Source: Blastococcus sp. TF02A-26 (GTDB lineage Bacteria; Actinomycetota; Actinomycetes; Mycobacteriales; Geodermatophilaceae). Taken from it: a DNA stretch of 64,000 bases. Positions 11,185 through 19,874 of the stretch are shown here, piece by piece (the first letter of the stretch is position 1; the number at the start of each line of letters is the position of its first letter). The notes under the pieces are model-generated. The model ran no database searches and was not told where the DNA came from. It was given only the letters and a program-made list of their open reading frames with translations. The stretch covers positions 62,001 to 126,000 of the forward strand of contig NZ_QOHG01000008.1 of NCBI RefSeq assembly GCF_003319125.1, in the 5' to 3' direction. The position numbers and the translations under genes are program-made.

Positions 11185-12282
11185 TCAGAAGGGGACGGGG
11201 ACGGCGTCGAGCACCTCGTCGACCAGGCCCCAGGCCCGGGCGGTGGCAGCATCCACCCGCGAGCCGGTCAGGCCCAGCCACGCCGCCCGCCAGCGTCCGG
11301 CCCGGCGCACGATGCTCACCGTGCCCCCGGCGCCCGGGATGAGCCCCATGGCCAGCTCCGGCAGCCCCAGGAGGGTGTCCGGCGCGGCGAGCACCCGCCC
11401 GGCGAAGCAGGGCAGCTCGAACCCCGCGCCCAGGCAGGTGCCGTGCACCCGCACCGTCACCCGGTCACGGATCCGGTGGACCGCCTCGGCGACGCTGGCC
11501 CCCAGCCGCACGACGTGCGCCCGCGCCGGGTCCGGCGCCGAGCCGAACTCGTCGAGGTCGCCCCCGGCGGAGAACGCCGGGCCGGCCCCGGTGATCTCGA
11601 CCAGCAGGTGGGGGTCCCACTCGGCGGGGGCGAGCGCGGCGAGCAGCGCGTCGCGCATGGCGGCGTCGACGGCGTTGCGGCGGGCCGGCCGGTCGAGCCG
11701 CACGTGCAGCACGTCGCCCACCCGCTGCGAGACGACCCGGCGGCTGCGGTCGTCCGGCTCGCGGGCCGGCCCCCGGGCATCGAGCCAGCCGGCGAACTCG
11801 GGGCCGGCGAGCAGCGTGGAGTAGGCCGCCGACTCCGCGGTCAGCGCGGCCGGGACCGGCAGCCCGGCGCTCTGCCGGAGCAGCCAGACGTAGGTCAGGG
11901 CGGCCAGCGGGGTGGCCGCGAAACGGTCGCCCAGGCCGGCGAGGGCCGCGTGGAGGTCCGGGACGGCGACCGTGCGCGCGTCGGCCGAGTCCGGGTTCGC
12001 GGTGAGCCCGAGGTCGACGGCCTGGGCCAGCTCGCCGGGGACCCGCTCCCGGCCCGTGGCGACGGCGACCGTGCAGCGACGGCTCCCGCGCAGCGCCGTG
12101 ACCGCCCGGCGACGGGCCGGCGCGGACAGCTCGGCGAACTCCCGTGCGTCGACGACCAGCAGCGGCTCGACCGGGCGGCCGGTCCCGTCGAGCACCAGGG
12201 GAGGGGGCGGCATCTCGGCGAGGTCGGCGGCCGGAAGCGTCGGCACTCCGGTCGGGACCCCGACCGGGTCGCTGGCCTGCAT
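11185..12282 (-). CDS. Enoyl-CoA hydratase/isomerase-like protein with long N-terminal extension
   Basis: A 365-residue protein. Residues ~190-365 form a crotonase domain: VLHVRLDRPARRNAVDAAM, the first oxyanion segment ITGAGPAFSAGGDLDEF, the second GTCLGAGFEL, and LPELAMGLIPGAGGT with a glutamate at a catalytic position. The usual C-terminal trimerisation helices are cut short, since the protein ends soon after RAWGLVDEV. The N-terminal ~185 residues are unusual: a LLVVDAREFAEL strand, a VAVATGRERVP segment and an Ala-rich helix resemble a second, degenerate crotonase unit. ATG 12282 has gggag upstream. It is transcribed divergently from the thiolase at 12,441. A two-domain enoyl-CoA hydratase or a scaffold subunit are both possible. 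Confidence 0.78.
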   Translation of the reverse strand: MQASDPVGVPTGVPTLPAADLAEMPPPPLVLDGTGRPVEPLLVVDAREFAELSAPARRRAVTALRGSRRCTVAVATGRERVPGELAQAVDLGLTANPDSADARTVAVPDLHAALAGLGDRFAATPLAALTYVWLLRQSAGLPVPAALTAESAAYSTLLAGPEFAGWLDARGPAREPDDRSRRVVSQRVGDVLHVRLDRPARRNAVDAAMRDALLAALAPAEWDPHLLVEITGAGPAFSAGGDLDEFGSAPDPARAHVVRLGASVAEAVHRIRDRVTVRVHGTCLGAGFELPCFAGRVLAAPDTLLGLPELAMGLIPGAGGTVSIVRRAGRWRAAWLGLTGSRVDAATARAWGLVDEVLDAVPVPF

Positions 12283-12440: not shown

Positions 12441-13610
12441 ATGCCCGAGGCCGTCATCGTCAGTGCCGCCCGAACCGCGATCGGGACGGCCCGCAAGGGC
12501 ACCCTCGCCGACACCACGGCGGAGGAGATGGCGCAGGTCGTCCTCACCGCGAACCTCGAGCGCGCCGGCATCGACCCGCAGCTGGTCGACGACGTCATCC
12601 TGGCCGAGTCGCTGTACGGCGGCGGCGCGGTCGCCCGCTACGTCGCCATCGAGGCCGGGCTGGACCACGTCCCCGGCCTGGCGATCAACCGGCACTGCGC
12701 CGGCAGCCTGACCTCGGTCGCCATCGCCGCCGGGTCCATCCGGTCCGGCATGGACCGCGCGATCGTGGCCGGCGGCGTCCAGGCGTCGTCGCTGTCGCCG
12801 CGCTTCTCCCGCCGCGCGCCCGGCACCGAGGACGTCGTGGACTGGTTCCCGCCGATCCACAAGGACGCCCCCGACGCGCCCAGCAAGGACATGTCGATCA
12901 CGGTCGGCTGGAACACCGCGGTCGAGGCCGGTCTCACCCGCGAGGACATGGACGCCTGGGCGCTGCGCTCCCACCAGCGTGCCGTCGAGGCCATCGACGC
13001 GGGCCTGCTCGTCGAGGAGATCGTGCCGATCAAGGCGCTGCAGAAGGACGGCAGCTACGTCGACTTCTCCGTCGACGAGCACCCCCGCCGCGGCACCACC
13101 ATGGAGAAGCTCGCCGCGCTGAAGGTGCTGCACCCGGAGATCGAGGGCTTCTCCATCACCGCCGGCAACGCCAGCGGCGTCAACGACGCGGCGGCCGCGC
13201 TGACCCTGGCCAGCGACGAGTTGGCCCGCAGCGAGGGCCTCCCGGTCCTCGCCACCGTCAAGGCGTGGGCGGCGACCGGCACCAACCCGCGCCGGACGGG
13301 CATGGCGCCCCTGGACGGCATCCCGAAGGTCCTCGAGCGCGCCGGGCTGTCGGTGTCCGACATCGCGCTCTGGGAGATCAACGAGGCCTTCGCCTCCGTG
13401 CCCGTCGCCGCCTGCAAGCTGCTCGGCATCGACGAGGAGAAGGTCAACATCCACGGCAGCGGCTGCAGCCTGGGCCACCCGATCTCGGCCTCCGGCGCCC
13501 GGATGCTGACCACGCTGGTCAACGACCTGCGCCGGATCGGCGGTGGCTACGGCATCGCGACGATGTGCGCCGGCGGCGGCATGTCCGGCGCCGTGCTGAT
13601 CCACGTCTGA
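12441..13610 (+). CDS. Acetyl-CoA acetyltransferase / 3-ketoacyl-CoA thiolase
   Basis: A 389-residue thiolase. The nucleophile is Cys86 in NRHCAGSL, the second-lobe histidine is His346 in GCSLGHPIS, and the proton-shuttle cysteine is Cys376 in TMCAGGGMSG. NEAFASVPVA supplies the conserved Asn/Glu. It would cleave a 3-ketoacyl-CoA with free CoA to give acetyl- or propionyl-CoA. The sequence is closer to degradative thiolases than to those of sterol or PHB synthesis, but chain length is not readable. ATG 12441 follows gaggtgcccc. It is divergent from the hydratase-like gene with a promoter and TetR-type box between. It ends in a long hairpin shared with the convergent thioesterase gene. Confidence 0.92.
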   Translation: MPEAVIVSAARTAIGTARKGTLADTTAEEMAQVVLTANLERAGIDPQLVDDVILAESLYGGGAVARYVAIEAGLDHVPGLAINRHCAGSLTSVAIAAGSIRSGMDRAIVAGGVQASSLSPRFSRRAPGTEDVVDWFPPIHKDAPDAPSKDMSITVGWNTAVEAGLTREDMDAWALRSHQRAVEAIDAGLLVEEIVPIKALQKDGSYVDFSVDEHPRRGTTMEKLAALKVLHPEIEGFSITAGNASGVNDAAAALTLASDELARSEGLPVLATVKAWAATGTNPRRTGMAPLDGIPKVLERAGLSVSDIALWEINEAFASVPVAACKLLGIDEEKVNIHGSGCSLGHPISASGARMLTTLVNDLRRIGGGYGIATMCAGGGMSGAVLIHV

Positions 13611-13621
13611 GGAACGACCCC

Positions 13622-13658
13622 CACAGCCCCCGTCGGCCCTAGGCCGACGGGGGCTGTG
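13622..13658. terminator. Bidirectional terminator hairpin overlapping the tesB stop codon
   Basis: Perfect 17-base inverted repeat (13622-13638, 13642-13658) with a 3-base loop cta. The loop is the minus-strand TAG stop of the thioesterase gene, so one arm of the hairpin is that gene's last codons. It serves both convergent genes. Confidence 0.8.
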
Positions 13659-14463
13659 TCGTCCGAGGGCGGCGCATGAGGCCCTCCTGGACGACGGTCG
13701 CGACCAGCCGGCCTCGCAGGTCGGTGATCCGCCCCTGGTTGTAGCTCCGGCCGTCGCCGGCCGAGGGCGAGACCTGGTCGTACAGCAGCCACTCGTCGGC
13801 ACGGAACGGCCGCAGGAACCACAGCGCGTGGTCCAGGGTCGCGAACTGCAGGCCCGGCTCGGTCGCGTGCACCTGCGTCGACGTCCCGATGAGGAACAGG
13901 TCGCTCAGGTAGGTCAGGGCCCCGACGTGGACGGCGGGGTCGTCGGGCAGCCGGTGGCGGTAGCGCACCCAGAACAGCTGGCGTGGGCGCCGGTCGACCC
14001 GCTCGCCGTCGGGCTCGGGAACCCGGACGGCGTCCCAGTTCGGCCACTCGTCGGCGAAGGCGCCGCCCAGCGGGTCCTCCCGGGGCAGCTCCTCGGGCCG
14101 GGGCACGACCGGCGCGGCCTCCTGGTGCTCGGGGCCCTCGTCGCCGGTGTGGAACGACGCCGACATCGAGAAGATGGTCTCGCCGTCCTGGACGGCGTTG
14201 ACCTGCCGCGTGCTGAAGCCGCGTCCGGTGCGCAGCCGGTCGACCAGCAGGAGGATCGGCTGCTGCGGCCGGCCCGGCCGGAGGAAGTAGCCGTGCAGGG
14301 AGTGCACCGGCTGGGTGGGCTCGACCGTCCCGACCGCGGCCATCATCGCCTGCCCGGCCACCTGTCCGCCGTACGTCCGCGCCATGTGCGTGGGCACCGG
14401 GTGGCCGCGGAAGACGTCGGTGTCGAGCCGTTCCACGGTGAGGACGTCGAGGATGTCGGTCAC
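13639..14463 (-). CDS. tesB: Acyl-CoA thioesterase II (TesB type)
   Basis: A 274-residue double-hot-dog thioesterase that hydrolyses acyl-CoA to free acid and CoA. TYGGQVAGQAMMAA (about residues 29-42), LHGYFLRPGRPQQPI and the C-terminal HALWFLRPFRADEWLLYDQVSPSA with NQGRITDLRGRLVATVVQEGLMR match TesB throughout. The conserved Asp (LDHALWF) and Gln near the end (VVQEGL) are catalytic-triad positions. GTG 14463 is preferred because aggtg sits 8 bases upstream; another GTG lies three codons earlier. It lies between the thiolase and the TetR gene and may relieve CoA sequestration during catabolism. The stop codon lies inside the terminator loop. Confidence 0.9.
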   Translation of the reverse strand: MTDILDVLTVERLDTDVFRGHPVPTHMARTYGGQVAGQAMMAAVGTVEPTQPVHSLHGYFLRPGRPQQPILLLVDRLRTGRGFSTRQVNAVQDGETIFSMSASFHTGDEGPEHQEAAPVVPRPEELPREDPLGGAFADEWPNWDAVRVPEPDGERVDRRPRQLFWVRYRHRLPDDPAVHVGALTYLSDLFLIGTSTQVHATEPGLQFATLDHALWFLRPFRADEWLLYDQVSPSAGDGRSYNQGRITDLRGRLVATVVQEGLMRRPRTTQPPSA

Positions 14464-14516
14464 CCGACACACCTACCAGGCGCCGGTCGCGGTCGCCCCT
14501 CCCGGGTCGGGACCGT

Positions 14517-15242
14517 TCAGCGGGCGGCGGCCCGCGTGCAGGGCTCGTCGGCCAGCAGGTCCTGCAGCAGCGCACGCAGCCCGCGCAGGGTGTTCTCGAG
14601 GCCGAACTCGAACTCCTCGTCCCCGGTCATGGCCAGCAGCTGCGGCCGCTCCAGCTGACCGAGCACGCGCAGCCGGGGGGCCTCCTCGAACGGCCCCGCG
14701 GTCGGCTCGGCCACCGCCGCGCCGTCGTCGGAGATCCGGGCCAGCGCCGCCGACCCGCGGGTGAACACCGACAGGGCGGCGTAGGCGTTCATCGCCGCGT
14801 CCGGCGGGAAGCCGGCGGCGACGAGGAGCTGCAGCACCCGGTCGATCCGCTCGGCTGAGAGCCGGTGCGCCTCGGGCGTTCCGGAGCTGCGCAGCACGAT
14901 GAGGTCGCAGAGCAGCTCGTGCTCGCGGAACATCCGCCGCTGCTTGCGGAAGTAGCGGCGCAGGTACTCGTCCCACGGCAGGTCGTCGGGGATGTCGATG
15001 CGCCGGTCGAACTCGGCCATCGCGCGCTCGGCGAGGGTGTCGAGGAGCTCGTCCTTGCTGCGGAAGTACCAGTAGATGCTGGTGACGCCGACGTCGAGCC
15101 GCTGCGCGAGGCGGGGCATGCTCAGCGCCTCGAGCGACTCCTCGGACGCGAGCTCGTAGGCACCCTCGAGGATCTCCGCAGCACTGATCGACCCGCGCGC
15201 ACGGCGCTTGCGGGGGGTCTGCGGGGCGGGGGTGGACGACAC
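14517..15242 (-). CDS. TetR-family transcriptional regulator
   Basis: A 241-residue regulator. The N-terminal HTH is ILEGAYELASEESLEALSMPRLAQRLDVGVTSIYWYFRSKDELLDTLAERAM (about residues 24-75). The remainder is the helical ligand domain, including a TetR_C-like stretch ending near residue 230. GTG 15242 is preceded by aaggagg. It is downstream of, and codirectional with, nothing regulatory, but sits next to tesB and the thiolases. A 22-base motif in its own upstream region recurs in the thiolase promoter at 12,348, so it probably represses itself and that gene in response to an acyl-CoA or related ligand. The ligand is unknown. Confidence 0.88.
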   Translation of the reverse strand: MSSTPAPQTPRKRRARGSISAAEILEGAYELASEESLEALSMPRLAQRLDVGVTSIYWYFRSKDELLDTLAERAMAEFDRRIDIPDDLPWDEYLRRYFRKQRRMFREHELLCDLIVLRSSGTPEAHRLSAERIDRVLQLLVAAGFPPDAAMNAYAALSVFTRGSAALARISDDGAAVAEPTAGPFEEAPRLRVLGQLERPQLLAMTGDEEFEFGLENTLRGLRALLQDLLADEPCTRAAAR

Positions 15243-15394
15243 GCCGGGCCTCCTTCCGAGGAGCGTCGACCAGCCTAGTCCGGCTCGGATCGCCCCCGGC
15301 CCACGGCGGGCCCGGCCGGCACCTGGTCGAGCGACGTCCCCACCTGTGCGGAGCAGTCCGTCGACGGGCGGACCTTCCCTCCGGGCCCACCCGT

Positions 15395-15424
15395 ATGATA
15401 GTTGTCGAAACGTCTACGGTAAGC
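15395..15424 (-). promoter_or_regulatory. Candidate tetR promoter with 22-base box
   Basis: On the minus strand tatcat (15395-15400) is preceded after 16 bases by ttaccg (15417-15422). The 22-base box shared with 12348-12369 spans 15403-15424 and overlaps the -35. The leader to the GTG would be about 145 bases. The rest of 15243-15489 shows no gene. Confidence 0.42.
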
Positions 15425-15489
15425 ATGTGCGGCGGGCGCCGCCCGTCCCCCCGGGGGATCCGGTCCCCCTCCCGGAAGCGAGGTCTGCG

Positions 15490-15546
15490 ATGAGCGCCGT
15501 TCCGCCGATCGTCCCGAGCCCCGCACGCGGGGGTCGATCCTCGTGA
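15490..15546 (+). CDS. Possible 18-residue leader peptide coupled to the multi-HTH gene
   Basis: ATG at 15490 with gcgagg upstream opens an 18-codon frame (MSAVPPIVPSPARGGRSS) whose TGA overlaps the GTG start of the next gene as GTGA. The length and overlap suggest translational coupling. Coding status is unproven and the sequence is Pro/Ser-rich with no homology recognised. Confidence 0.35.
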   Translation: MSAVPPIVPSPARGGRSS

Positions 15547-16718
15547 CCGCTTCCCCCTGGGCGCCGCCCGTCGCCGTCGCCCCCGTGCCGGAGGGCCCGA
15601 CGCTCGCGGCGCACGTCCGCGACTGGCGGGCCGTGCACGGGCTGACCCACGGCGACCTCGCGCGCCGGCTCGGCGTCGCGCGCACCACCGTCCGCAACTG
15701 GGAGCTCGGCCGCCGGCCGCAGCCCCTCCAGCTGGCCGCCCTCGCCCGCCTGTTCGGCTGGGACGACCTGACGGCCCGCGCGGTGGCGGGGGAGGACCGG
15801 GTGCGCACCGAGCGCACCTCGGGCGGCCGGCACGCCTCGCCGCTGTGCCGGGCCCGCCTCGCGGCCGGGCTGACCATGACCCAGGTGGCCAACCGGGTCG
15901 GGGTGACGCCGGCGAGCGTCTCCCGCTGGGAGAACGGCTGCCGCCGGCCCAGCCCGGAGCATCGGCCGGCGCTGGCGCGGGTCCTCCGGGTCGCGCCCGA
16001 GCAGCTGGACGGGCTGCTCGAGGACACCCCGGCGGGGCGCTGGGACGGCGCGGCGCTGCCGGGCCTCGGTGCGCTGCGCCGGGCCGCCGGCTGGACGCAG
16101 CGGGAGTTCGCCCTCGCCGTCGGCATCGGCTCCACGACCGCGCACCGCTGGGAGAACGGCCGCACCCGCGTGCCGGAGGACCGGCTGGAGCGGGTGGCCG
16201 AGGCCCTGGGCCTGACCCCGGCGGAGCTCCTGGAGCGGGGCGCGACCCCGGTGGCCCGCGCCGACAGCATCCCCGCGCTGGCCCGCCTGAGGACCGCGGC
16301 CGGCATGAGCCAGCAGGAAGCCGCGCACCACGTCGGCATCAGCGTCCGGACCCTGCGCCGCTACGAGCACGGCCGTCGTCGGCCGGGTCTGGCCGCGGCA
16401 CGGTCGCTGGCCCGGTGCTACCGGCGACCGCTGGCCGAGGTGCTGCGGGCCGGTGCGGTCCCCGTCCCGCCGATCCTGATGCGCCGGGCGTGGGTGCCCG
16501 CAGACCTGCCCGCGGTCCTCGAGGCGCTCCGGGCGACGGCCGGCCTCTCCGCGGCGGAGCTCGGCCGGCGCCTGGGCACGACCGGCCGCCGGGTGCGGTC
16601 CTGGGAGCGGGGCATCGCGGTGCCCGGCCGCGCGGCGTGCCAGCGGCTGGAGCTGCTGCACCAGCTGCCGGCCGACCGGCTGGCCCGGCTGGCGCGGGGA
16701 GCCGTTCCCGTCGGCTGA
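15543..16718 (+). CDS. Protein with five tandem Cro/CI-type (XRE) HTH domains
   Basis: A 391-residue protein made almost entirely of helix-turn-helix units. Repeats lie at about 21-73, 99-155, 173-229, 243-301 and 322-381. Each has a basic first helix, an L/M-T/S-x-x-E/D-x-A turn and a W/Y-E-x-G signature: NWELGRRP, RWENGCRRP, RWENGRTRVP, RYEHGRRRP and SWERGIAVP. Unit 5 diverges most. There is no ligand, cupin, peptidase or membrane domain, so this would be a stand-alone DNA-binding array or a scaffold. The GTG start overlaps an 18-codon upstream frame by 4 bases. The thiolase gene follows after 65 bases. Single or double XRE domains are common; five in one chain without another domain is unusual. 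Confidence 0.85.
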   Translation: MTASPWAPPVAVAPVPEGPTLAAHVRDWRAVHGLTHGDLARRLGVARTTVRNWELGRRPQPLQLAALARLFGWDDLTARAVAGEDRVRTERTSGGRHASPLCRARLAAGLTMTQVANRVGVTPASVSRWENGCRRPSPEHRPALARVLRVAPEQLDGLLEDTPAGRWDGAALPGLGALRRAAGWTQREFALAVGIGSTTAHRWENGRTRVPEDRLERVAEALGLTPAELLERGATPVARADSIPALARLRTAAGMSQQEAAHHVGISVRTLRRYEHGRRRPGLAAARSLARCYRRPLAEVLRAGAVPVPPILMRRAWVPADLPAVLEALRATAGLSAAELGRRLGTTGRRVRSWERGIAVPGRAACQRLELLHQLPADRLARLARGAVPVG

Positions 16719-16783: not shown

Positions 16784-17929
16784 ATGCGTGACGCAGTCAT
16801 CGTCGAGGCCGTCCGGACGCCGGTCGGCAGGCGCAAGGGCGGCCTGTCGGGGGTGCACCCGGCCGACCTCTCCGCGCACGTGCTGCGATCCCTGGTCGAG
16901 CGCGCGGGTGTCGACCCCGCCGTCGTCGAGGACGTCATCTGGGGCTGCGTCGGGCAGGTCGGCGAGCAGACCTTCGACATCGCCCGGACCGCCGCGCTGG
17001 CCGCGGGCTGGCCCGAGACCGTGACCGGCGTGACGATCGACCGCCAGTGCGGCTCCTCGCAGCAGTCGATCCACTTCGCCGCCGCCGGCCTGGTCGCCGG
17101 CCAGTACGACGTCGTCGTGGCCGGTGGCGTGGAGTCGATGAGCCGGGTGCCGATGGGCACCGCGCTGATGGACCAGAACCCCTTCGGCGAGGCGTTCATG
17201 GAGCGCTACGGCGCCTTCCCGAACCAGGGCGTCGGCGCGGAATTGATCGCCGAGAAGTGGGGCTTCACCCGCGAGCAGTGCGACGAGTTCTCCGTGGCCT
17301 CGCACGAGAAGGCGGCCGCTGCGAGGTCCGAGGGCCGCTTCGAGTCGCAGATCGCCCCGGTGACCCTGCCCGACGGCACCGTGGTCGGTGAGGACGAGGG
17401 CATCCGTCCGGGCACGACCGCCGACGTGCTGGCCGGCCTGAAGACGGTGTTCAAGCCCGAGGGCGGCGTCATCACCGCCGGCAACTCCTCGCAGATCTCC
17501 GACGGGTCCGCGGCGCTGCTCATGACGACCGGCGAGAAGGCGCGCGAGCTCGGGCTGACCCCGATCGCGCGGGTGCACACCGCCGTCCTGGCCGGGTCCG
17601 ACCCGATCATGATGCTGACCGCGCCGATCCCGGCCACGGAGAAGGCGTTGCAGCGCTCGGGCCTCTCGCTGGACGAGATCGGCGCCTTCGAGGTGAACGA
17701 GGCCTTCGCGCCGGTGCCGCTGGCCTGGCTGGCCGACATCGGCGCCGACGCCAAGGCGCTCAACCCCAACGGCGGCGCCATCGCCCTCGGTCACCCGCTG
17801 GGGGGCTCCGGCGCGCGTATCGCGACGACGCTGCTGCACCACATGCGCGACAACGGCATCCGCTACGGCCTGCAGACGATGTGCGAGGGCGGCGGCCAGG
17901 CCAACGCCACCATCTTCGAGCTCCTGTAG
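16784..17929 (+). CDS. Thiolase (acetyl-CoA C-acetyltransferase; steroid-type 3-ketoacyl-CoA thiolase-like)
   Basis: A 381-residue thiolase. Cys89 in IDRQCGSSQQS is the nucleophile, His337 lies in NPNGGAIALGHPLGGSGAR, and Cys367 in TMCEGGGQANA is the second cysteine. The QCGSSQQ loop and the AGLVAGQYDVVVAGGVESMSR segment resemble the FadA5-like branch of actinobacterial thiolases used in sterol side-chain and ring degradation. That assignment is by recall of motif style and is not proven. ATG 16784 has aaggggag upstream. It lies 65 bases after the multi-HTH gene, with a candidate tagagt -10 in between, and ends before a large inverted repeat. Confidence 0.9.
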   Translation: MRDAVIVEAVRTPVGRRKGGLSGVHPADLSAHVLRSLVERAGVDPAVVEDVIWGCVGQVGEQTFDIARTAALAAGWPETVTGVTIDRQCGSSQQSIHFAAAGLVAGQYDVVVAGGVESMSRVPMGTALMDQNPFGEAFMERYGAFPNQGVGAELIAEKWGFTREQCDEFSVASHEKAAAARSEGRFESQIAPVTLPDGTVVGEDEGIRPGTTADVLAGLKTVFKPEGGVITAGNSSQISDGSAALLMTTGEKARELGLTPIARVHTAVLAGSDPIMMLTAPIPATEKALQRSGLSLDEIGAFEVNEAFAPVPLAWLADIGADAKALNPNGGAIALGHPLGGSGARIATTLLHHMRDNGIRYGLQTMCEGGGQANATIFELL

Positions 17930-18691: not shown

Positions 18692-19261
18692 TCAGGCGAG
18701 GTCGCGTCGGCGGTGGTCGATCGCCTCGAGGACCGTCTTCCGGTCGCGGCCCACCTCGCGCTCGGCCCGCTCGGCGCGGTCGAGGGTCCCGGCGTCCATC
18801 CCGGCCACCCGCTCGCGTGCCTCGGGGGCGGCGAGGTCCAGCAGCTCCGCGGCCGCGCGCGCCTCGCGGGCGGCGTCGGGGTTCGGGACGTGCTGCCCCT
18901 CGCCGTCCTGCTTCGCGCGCTCGGTCGCGGCGCGTTCGTCCTCGGTCAGCAGCTGCCAGGCGGCGTCGGGCAGGTACCGGTGCGTGGTCGAGCCGTCCCG
19001 GGCGTCCGTGCCGCCGTCTGCGGTGTGCCAGTCCTGCCCGGTCCACTGCTGCAGGTGCCGTTGCGCGTCCGTGCGCTCGCCCTCGTGCCGGTAGCCCCCG
19101 CCGGCCGCCTCGTACTCGGACGTGAGGAGCTGGCTCGTGCGCGCGCTCCACTGCCCGGGACGGCCACCGCGGTCCCCGGCCTTGATCTCCTCCTTGAGCC
19201 GCTCGCGCAGCTGCGGGTCGGTGTAGTCGTCGGCGTAGTCCTCCGCCGTCTTGCCGCTCAT
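18692..19261 (-). CDS. DUF5872-like protein (189 aa)
   Basis: A 189-residue, highly charged cytoplasmic protein. The central segment GGRPGQWSARTSQLLTSEYEAAGGGYRHEGERTDAQRHLQQWTGQDWHTADGG and RYLPDAAWQLLTEDE match my recollection of the DUF5872 family (W-S-A-R...Q-L-L, G-G-G-Y, W-x2-x-x-W, RYLP motifs). The N-terminus is acidic with TAEDYADDYTDPQLRERLKEE and the C-terminus is a helical charged region (EARERVAGMDAGTLDRAERAEREV). No catalytic residues are known. The ATG overlaps the stop of the XRE-cupin gene by 4 bases (ATGA), so it is coupled to that regulator. Function unknown; homologues are usually described only as a domain of unknown function. Confidence 0.78.
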   Translation of the reverse strand: MSGKTAEDYADDYTDPQLRERLKEEIKAGDRGGRPGQWSARTSQLLTSEYEAAGGGYRHEGERTDAQRHLQQWTGQDWHTADGGTDARDGSTTHRYLPDAAWQLLTEDERAATERAKQDGEGQHVPNPDAAREARAAAELLDLAAPEARERVAGMDAGTLDRAERAEREVGRDRKTVLEAIDHRRRDLA

Positions 19262-19848
19262 CCCCGGCCGGTACCCCGCGCCGGCTGGGCGCGCACGTGG
19301 ATCCGCTCGCCCTGCGGTCCGTAGAGGTTGAGGATCTCGGCCGGCACGTCGCCGGGGTTGCCGACCCAGTGCGGCGTCCGGGTGTCGAACTCCGCCACCT
19401 CGCCGGCGCGCAGCTCGAGGTCGTGCTCGCCGAGCAGCAGACGCACCCGGCCGGAGAGCACGTACAGCCACTCGTGGCCCTCGTGGGTCTTCTGCTCCGG
19501 ATCCCCGGGCGGGTGGTGCGGGGGGATGACCTGCTTGTAGGCCTGCACCCCACCCGGGCGCCGGGTCAGCGGCCAGAAGACGTGGCCGCCCTTCTCGAAG
19601 GGCCGGGCGACGACCCGCGGGTCGGGCGTGGAGGGCGCGCCGACCAGCTCGTCGATCGGTACCGAGTGCGCCCGGGCGAGGGGGAGGAGCAGCTCCAGGG
19701 TGGGCCGGCGCTGGCCGGACTCCAGCCGCGAGAGGGTGCTCACCGAGATACCCGTCGTCTCCGACAGCTGGGTCAGCGTCACGTCGCGCTTGGTCCGCAG
19801 TTCGCGCAGCCGGGGGCCCACCGCCGCCAGGACGTCGTCGTCGCTCAT
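19258..19848 (-). CDS. XRE-family regulator with C-terminal cupin domain
   Basis: A 196-residue two-domain regulator. Residues ~8-65 form an XRE HTH (RTKRDVTLTQLSETTGISVSTLSRLESGQRRPTLELLLPLARA). Residues ~95-185 form a double-stranded beta-helix cupin (GHEWLYVLSGRVRLLLGEHDLELRAGEVAEFDTRTPHWVGNPG), with the histidines and Glu of a metal- or ligand-binding pocket. This architecture is common in small-molecule-responsive repressors. The ATG at 19848 is preferred over a TTG eight codons upstream. It is divergent from a thioredoxin-reductase-like gene 67 bases away. A candidate operator cttggc-like dyad lies between, implying control of both. It overlaps the DUF5872-like gene downstream by 4 bases. 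Confidence 0.88.
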   Translation of the reverse strand: MSDDDVLAAVGPRLRELRTKRDVTLTQLSETTGISVSTLSRLESGQRRPTLELLLPLARAHSVPIDELVGAPSTPDPRVVARPFEKGGHVFWPLTRRPGGVQAYKQVIPPHHPPGDPEQKTHEGHEWLYVLSGRVRLLLGEHDLELRAGEVAEFDTRTPHWVGNPGDVPAEILNLYGPQGERIHVRAQPARGTGRG

Positions 19849-19855
19849 GCGTCCA

Positions 19856-19874
19856 CTTTGCCATTTCAGCAAGG
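19856..19874. promoter_or_regulatory. Candidate operator between XRE-cupin regulator and flavoprotein gene
   Basis: Imperfect dyad ctttgc-N7-gcaagg (5 of 6 symmetric) in the 67-base divergent region, with ttgaca on the minus strand at 19879-19884. Position and symmetry suit a shared operator for the XRE-cupin protein. The assignment is by eye. Confidence 0.4.

Follow-up and report, generated by a model that had tools for sequence, protein, structure and literature searches.

What can a bacterium address on its chromosome with five DNA-binding domains strung together in one chain? The question is raised by a plus-strand gene at 15543–16718 of the window, by which we mean the whole 64,000-nucleotide stretch of Blastococcus sp. 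TF02A-26 DNA that was analysed. The gene has a GTG start and encodes a product of 391 aa, here called the array protein. A preliminary description had proposed that this protein consists of five tandem Cro/CI-type helix-turn-helix (HTH) units, a claim to be given up if a Pfam scan returned two hits or fewer. We found that Pfam HTH_3 (PF01381) matches the product over five stretches (E=1.3e-57; 192.1 bits vs a gathering score of 23), which places it among the Cro/CI helix-turn-helix proteins, and that HTH_31 likewise matches over five stretches (E=6.3e-49). A unit HMM built in this analysis also finds five units in the array protein (E=2e-17 to 2e-24); because that model was trained on these same units, we treat Pfam as the independent test of the unit count. 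The best 25 of the 59 matching Pfam families are all HTH or HTH-containing models, with no sensor, peptidase or membrane domain among them, just as had been expected, and no model spans the full 391 aa among the best 25 of 59 Pfam or the best 25 of 46 NCBIfam families. A sequence search of the PDB gave 35 matches at E≤1, the strongest at 0.0003; almost every one extends over roughly a single domain.

The five units lie on the plus strand, each with a W/Y-E box. Specifically, unit 1 (15600–15785, residues 20–81) carries NWELGRRP; unit 2 (15828–16013, residues 96–157), which is preceded by a conserved DRVRTxRTSGG linker, carries RWENGCRRP; unit 3 (16050–16235, residues 170–231) carries RWENGRTRVP; unit 4 (16263–16448, residues 241–302) carries RYEHGRRRP; and unit 5 (16503–16688, residues 321–382) carries SWERGIAVP. 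The boxes stand at residues 53, 129, 203, 274 and 354, giving box-to-box spacings of 76, 74, 71 and 80 residues where 70–80 had been estimated. The array protein has a net charge of about +27 and a pI of 11.7, the net charge of unit 3 being about 0. Among the five copies from the genus, dN/dS is 0.112 over the whole gene and 0.021, 0.093, 0.135, 0.070 and 0.067 for units 1 to 5, with values of 0.405 in the N-terminal tail and 0.187 in the linker between units 4 and 5 (residues 303–320). Each of the five units is thus under purifying selection in the genus, and reading frame, Pfam matches, alignment and dN/dS together identify the five-HTH ORF as a real gene; we regard the reverse-strand ORFs that overlie 15543–16718 as shadow frames of the kind that GC-rich DNA produces. 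We note that about 50 extra bases separate an RBS-like GCGAGG from the GTG start in the window (15490–15546) and at one other locus, L022, and are absent from loci L013, L015 and L021. In the window these bases hold an 18-codon ATG frame whose end overlaps the start of the array gene, as if for translational coupling; the corresponding small frame of L022 was read by eye only.

Three NCBIfam models score above their cut-offs among the best 25 of 46 families, each over five stretches and none over the whole length, so we take their scores to be sums over five domains. They name a phage repressor and two antitoxins, none of which we accept as a description of the array protein. RstR (NF041951), a single-HTH repressor of about 108 aa, reaches 111.3 bits against 80, its best stretch covering model positions 6–53 of 108, and a phage collection gave no match. 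The MqsA-type model (TIGR03830) reaches 107.2 bits, its best stretch covering only positions 68–113 of 127; in MqsA-type antitoxins the HTH follows an N-terminal zinc part with CxxCG. Y4mF (TIGR03070), a short, toxin-paired, single-HTH antitoxin with a 58-position model, reaches 95.4 bits, and the neighbours of the array gene are a TetR gene and a thiolase gene. Wmk of Wolbachia (NF047948), which has more than one XRE-type HTH per chain, matches at E=4.7e-19, with 68.9 bits vs a cut-off of 300, and belongs to a different biology.

Structure prediction agrees with the unit count. The helices of the full-length AlphaFold model (13 alignment rows; mean pLDDT 84.1, pTM 0.36) form five bundles, with residues 1–17 and 238–241 below 50, and a model of the core from unit 3 to unit 5 (17 rows) has pLDDT 90.0 and pTM 0.56. 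In the core model the block mean is 64 for the linker between units 3 and 4 and 90, 83 and 93 for the linker between units 4 and 5, which is thus predicted with good confidence. Because pTM is 0.36 for the full-length and 0.56 for the core model, the placing of the units relative to each other is ill-defined. In Foldseek comparison with solved structures neither model, even by a single domain, reached E≤0.001 (best values 0.047 and 0.016), so that the tandem arrangement has no match among them. Most of the top rows are XRE proteins, which fit one unit at low rmsd or longer stretches at an rmsd over 12.

The array gene is present in all three genomes of its genus, our own included, with the other two copies 92% and 94% identical. 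Across the family it occurs in 10 of 112 genomes and 4 of 12 genera, so its distribution is patchy; two other genera contribute six genomes whose copies keep all five units at 48–57% identity. Outside the family, relatives at E≤1e-20 occur in 3 of the 100 genomes of one family (f41) and 1 of the 17 of another (f52). The counts for the family and beyond it are lower bounds, as the successive searches scored no more than 17, 6, 4, 18 and 7 candidates in each genome. Records with relatives include Blastococcus sp. URHD0036, Blastococcus sp. CPCC 205250, Blastococcus endophyticus and Trujillonella endophytica, itself a member of the Geodermatophilaceae. Left out of the family were weak matches (L016, L017), a match with one internal stop in genome G512 that falls short of the threshold (L066, E=7.2e-17), matches outside the family with two or three units or in a very long protein (L018–L020), proteins with three units of other make-up (L080–L082), and viral matches (L083–L096), of which the four scanned with the unit HMM (L083, L085, L086 and L088 of 14) have one or two units each. 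The excluded L080 (1417–2706), L081 (1417–2706) and L082 (1360–2352) carry three XRE units in other families of Actinomycetota, and in L080 and L081 a long stretch of biased composition separates the second unit from the third. A census of multi-HTH proteins across the phylum with PF01381 found none in 396 genomes and, having also missed the one in the genome of the window, was discarded.

Relatives of the array protein differ in unit number. The unit HMM counts five in the window protein, L021–L028 and L069, four in L029, L067 and L068, and three in L030 and L070, most of the units counted having also trained the model; L013 and L015, outside that scan, both align over the full length. In alignment A1 all 11 rows with five units keep the W/Y-E box in each of them, whereas L069 has lost it in units 3 and 4 yet still gives five unit-HMM matches. 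In a tree of individual units (64 rows, near-copies L013, L015 and L022 omitted) the position labels need 7 changes, where 5 is the least possible and shuffled labels need 39.3 on average. Units therefore cluster by position across genera, and the order of the array is old. The finer forks of this tree are unsure, as its 62 columns are few: unit 3 alone forms a single clade (94/85), the other four positions need 2–3 changes each, and the misplaced rows include three from L069 and two of unit 2 (from L067 and L068). Units 3, 4 and 5, in that order, are common to all counted relatives, as seen both in the tree and in a 17-row alignment (A2) of which the window protein is the first row; units 1 and 2 are present or absent, the short relatives keeping 3–5 and not 1–2. 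In the linker before unit 5 a W and a P are nearly invariant (W153 and P159 of A2). Recognition helices are 76% conserved in unit 1, 71% in unit 2 and 44–51% in units 3–5 among seven five-unit representatives; as conservation is lower in the last three, drift of the target may have proceeded through them.

The genes around the array gene point to catabolism. As the preliminary description had it, the gene stands between a TetR-family regulator, transcribed divergently (14517–15242, minus strand; Pfam TetR_N and TetR_C_1), and a thiolase that begins 65 bp beyond its 3′ end (16784–17929, plus strand; Pfam Thiolase_N/C, and TIGR01930 above cut-off) and is possibly co-transcribed with it. Further out lie an acyl-CoA thioesterase (13639–14472, minus strand; Pfam Acyl_CoA_thio) and a second thiolase (12441–13610, plus strand; Pfam Thiolase_N/C), whose start is placed from the Pfam match within an ORF that opens at 12144. 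The downstream thiolase is 81% identical to one that lies beside npdG at L030, where the end of an ETF-alpha-like gene at the contig edge is followed by a gap and the 3-unit relative, and where a thioesterase and a second thiolase are also found. At four loci of genus g4 (L023, L024, L026 and L027) npdG (TIGR01915, above cut-off) lies directly upstream of the array gene. As npdG itself is common, being found in 99 of the 112 family genomes, only its adjacency counts. The array gene is followed by pntA-pntB at L023 (above cut-offs) and at L027 (by homology, 69–80% identity to the L023 frames), and by ribBA (above cut-off) and a frame like the ETF-beta-like one of L023 at L026. Elsewhere, a partial acyl-CoA dehydrogenase and an APH-type phosphotransferase that overlaps the array start precede the gene (L028), or an ETF-alpha-like gene lies upstream of the 4-unit relative (L029). 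In f41 the relatives L067, L068 and L070 diverge from the gene for a sugar-binding protein in a sugar-ABC/araA-like/LacI cluster, whose families were checked on L067, where galM passes its cut-off and the others fall below theirs. The names ETF-like, sugar-ABC, LacI and araA-like denote best matches below a curated cut-off, and the araA-like frame runs off the end of the stretch. The loci L024 and L025 are at contig ends, and L069 too is near one; no shared neighbour was recognised near L025, in whose genome (G061) no npdG was found, and no informative neighbour on the 7.8-kb contig of the five-unit L069. The 5- and 4-unit relatives that had been proposed for comparison exist, and most loci associate the family with catabolic operons, though not with any one pathway.

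Three further features of these neighbourhoods deserve record. In genomes G042, G046, G056 and G062 the npdG next to the array gene is an extra copy, with at least one further npdG match elsewhere in each. Small proteins with the pattern CGxxLxYEAR...VPCRxHGYC lie near three array genes (L023:3605–3940, L027:5463–5834 and L028:3889–4296) and are 50–57% identical between loci, the L027 copy having no Pfam match at E≤1e-5. In the window, an XRE regulator with one HTH and a cupin domain at its C-terminus is encoded within a few kb of the array gene (19258–19872, minus strand).

A candidate target lies between the TetR gene and the array gene. In the alignment of this intergenic region from the five genus loci, 114 of 381 columns are invariant; within one non-coding block, TATGATAGTTGTCGAAACRTCTACGGTAAGCATGTGC (15394–15430, taken without regard to strand), 34 of 36 columns are invariant vs 23% outside. 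We regard the block as a putative operator or promoter of the array gene. With up to 3 mismatches allowed, its 27-bp core is found once in the genome; within the window, the runner-up match to the block agrees at 20 of 35 letters. The block is non-palindromic, 730 of 1000 shuffles scoring as high. That the array protein binds an array of operator half-sites, as had been suggested, is made plausible by a non-palindromic block of 35–36 bp in this promoter region. The block is known from close species only, and it may instead be a core promoter and/or an operator of the TetR protein. A promoter consensus scan found nothing, and says little because shuffled sequence also gave 0. We rejected two other readings of the block: in L021 it can be read as part of the array frame, but in the window that frame is open from 15423 onwards, a point within the block, and no Rfam RNA matched at E≤0.1. 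Allowing up to 14 substitutions, we did not find the block in 3.7-kb stretches around TetR orthologues in G033 (64% identity) and G100 (43%; genome 72% complete), in neither of which an array gene was found; that it is missing beside these two TetR genes speaks for the array protein as the one that reads it. Upstream of npdG, the 10 pairs formed by L023, L024, L026, L027 and L030 gave no clear shared block, the best pair (L027/L030) having a score of 13 that 7 of 200 shuffles reached. Ahead of the sugar-ABC operon, the intergenic regions of L067, L068 and L070 share TGTGACCGGTGTCAC-, GAGTGTGAGCGCTAACATTC- and ATGTGAACGYTCACC-like blocks of striking conservation. Because these resemble CRP-type and LacI-type operators we do not claim them for the array protein, and none is therefore left for it there.

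How such a protein might read a long site is suggested by Cbp1 of the Sulfolobales, which has three HTH domains that, on the data reported, appear to align along the CRISPR repeat from 5′ to 3′, and for which a 21-bp binding motif is named there (PMC10883916). Dividing 21 bp by three, we obtain about 7 bp per HTH; five units would therefore need 35–40 bp, which is the length of the block. The likeness lies in likely duplicated HTH units joined by short linkers in one chain; Cbp1, however, is archaeal, has three units and acts on CRISPR repeats with Cren7 (PMC10883916), whereas the array protein has five Cro/CI units and catabolic neighbours. Compared by architecture alone, the array protein has what defines a Cbp1-like protein, several HTHs per chain and no other domain, and its locus has a conserved block that would fit a long site, as judged from sequence. 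In Pseudomonas putida Xre-RES, several XRE domains also come together on one promoter, but they are reported to be joined through a 4:2 complex with the toxin (PMC12204516) and not within one chain. Single-domain Cro/CI (XRE) regulators such as ClgR share the fold of the unit (Foldseek 3f52_A: prob 1.00, TMt 0.75, rmsd 2.3, E=0.056), with one HTH per chain vs five. XRE regulators are usually dimers on palindromes.

We put at about even the chances that the array protein is a local transcription regulator whose five non-identical units act in one chain on one long asymmetric operator. Most units would sit side by side, at 7–8 bp each, along a site of about 35–40 bp between the TetR and array genes, and one chain would bind as tightly and as specifically as ordinary XRE repressors do by dimerising on a palindrome. 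Once bound, the protein would repress or set its own promoter, that of the TetR gene and expression of the downstream thiolase; the signal would probably be competition with the neighbouring TetR protein or the amount of array protein, no ligand pocket being seen. Such a scaffold could be moved to new operons, as units 1–2 come and go and the recognition helices of units 3–5 differ more between genera. Unit 3 is uncharged and units 3 and 4 of L069 lack the box, so DNA binding need not extend to every unit, and unit 3 may be a non-binding one. More tentatively, we propose a type of 'polydactyl' HTH factor, which would bind as a monomer to a unique, non-palindromic site of about 35–40 bp through five Cro/CI units of 7–8 bp each, would have no ligand domain, and would acquire new targets by gain or loss of units and by single changes in recognition helices.

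The most serious competing account, which we judge rather doubtful, assigns the block to the TetR protein and the core promoters, with the array protein acting elsewhere or hardly at all. Such an assignment fits the position of the block in a divergent promoter region and the lack of a comparable block at the loci of other genera; it sits less well with the missing match around the TetR orthologues of the two array-less genomes, and with a block that is non-palindromic where TetR sites are usually palindromic. It is also unlikely, in our view, that the protein is a conventional XRE repressor that binds a short site through only one or two of its units (for example 1–2, or the semi-rigid pair 4–5), the rest serving dimerisation, stability or protein contacts. 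The higher conservation of the recognition helices of units 1 and 2, the uncharged unit 3, the boxes lost from L069 and the existence of the 3-unit L030 and L070 would all follow from this arrangement, but purifying selection acts on every unit in the genus, all 11 five-unit rows of A1 keep every box, and the short relatives retain units 3–5 rather than 1–2.

A role in shaping DNA, which the preliminary description had also entertained, becomes less likely in view of the presence of the gene in 10 of 112 family genomes and of most copies beside catabolic genes. We accordingly regard as improbable a bridging or architectural protein whose units tie together several separate operators or sites on the chromosome: the undefined placing of the units (pTM 0.36) and the high positive charge would suit it, whereas the block core is single in the genome and its next match in the window, at 20 of 35 letters, is poor. 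Least credible, to the point of being very improbable, is that the gene belongs to a mobile element or encodes the antitoxin of a toxin-antitoxin pair. Several copies do lie near contig ends, L023 has an IS110-type transposase, and the summed HTH score exceeds the cut-offs of antitoxin and phage-repressor models; against this, the phage collection gave no match at E≤1e-5, viral contigs gave 14 partial matches, 21 plasmid records gave partial matches at 35–38% identity, none over more than 80% of the query, at all five genus loci the alignment covers the start of the array gene and carries on into that of the TetR gene, and the scanned neighbours include no toxin family.

The five-HTH protein, then, is real, conserved and without a name in the sources searched. 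The suggestion that it is undescribed holds in so far as no Pfam or NCBIfam model among the matches listed covers its whole length and the papers listed by the literature searches, which leave out most subscription papers, include no bacterial protein of five tandem XRE units; it fails in so far as Cbp1 is already known as a tandem-HTH precedent and relatives with three to five units exist. In bacteria, the specificity of a regulator usually comes from dimerisation on a short palindrome; if our preferred reading of one chain on one long operator is true, a single chain reading a long asymmetric address would give bacteria their own analogue of the zinc-finger array. With relatives of three, four and five units and a candidate operator of about 35 bp, the dependence of footprint length on unit number is directly testable. 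For the organisms themselves, the recurrent link with npdG, pntAB, ETF-like genes and thiolase points to a regulator of beta-oxidation and of NADP/F420 redox balance in soil actinobacteria.
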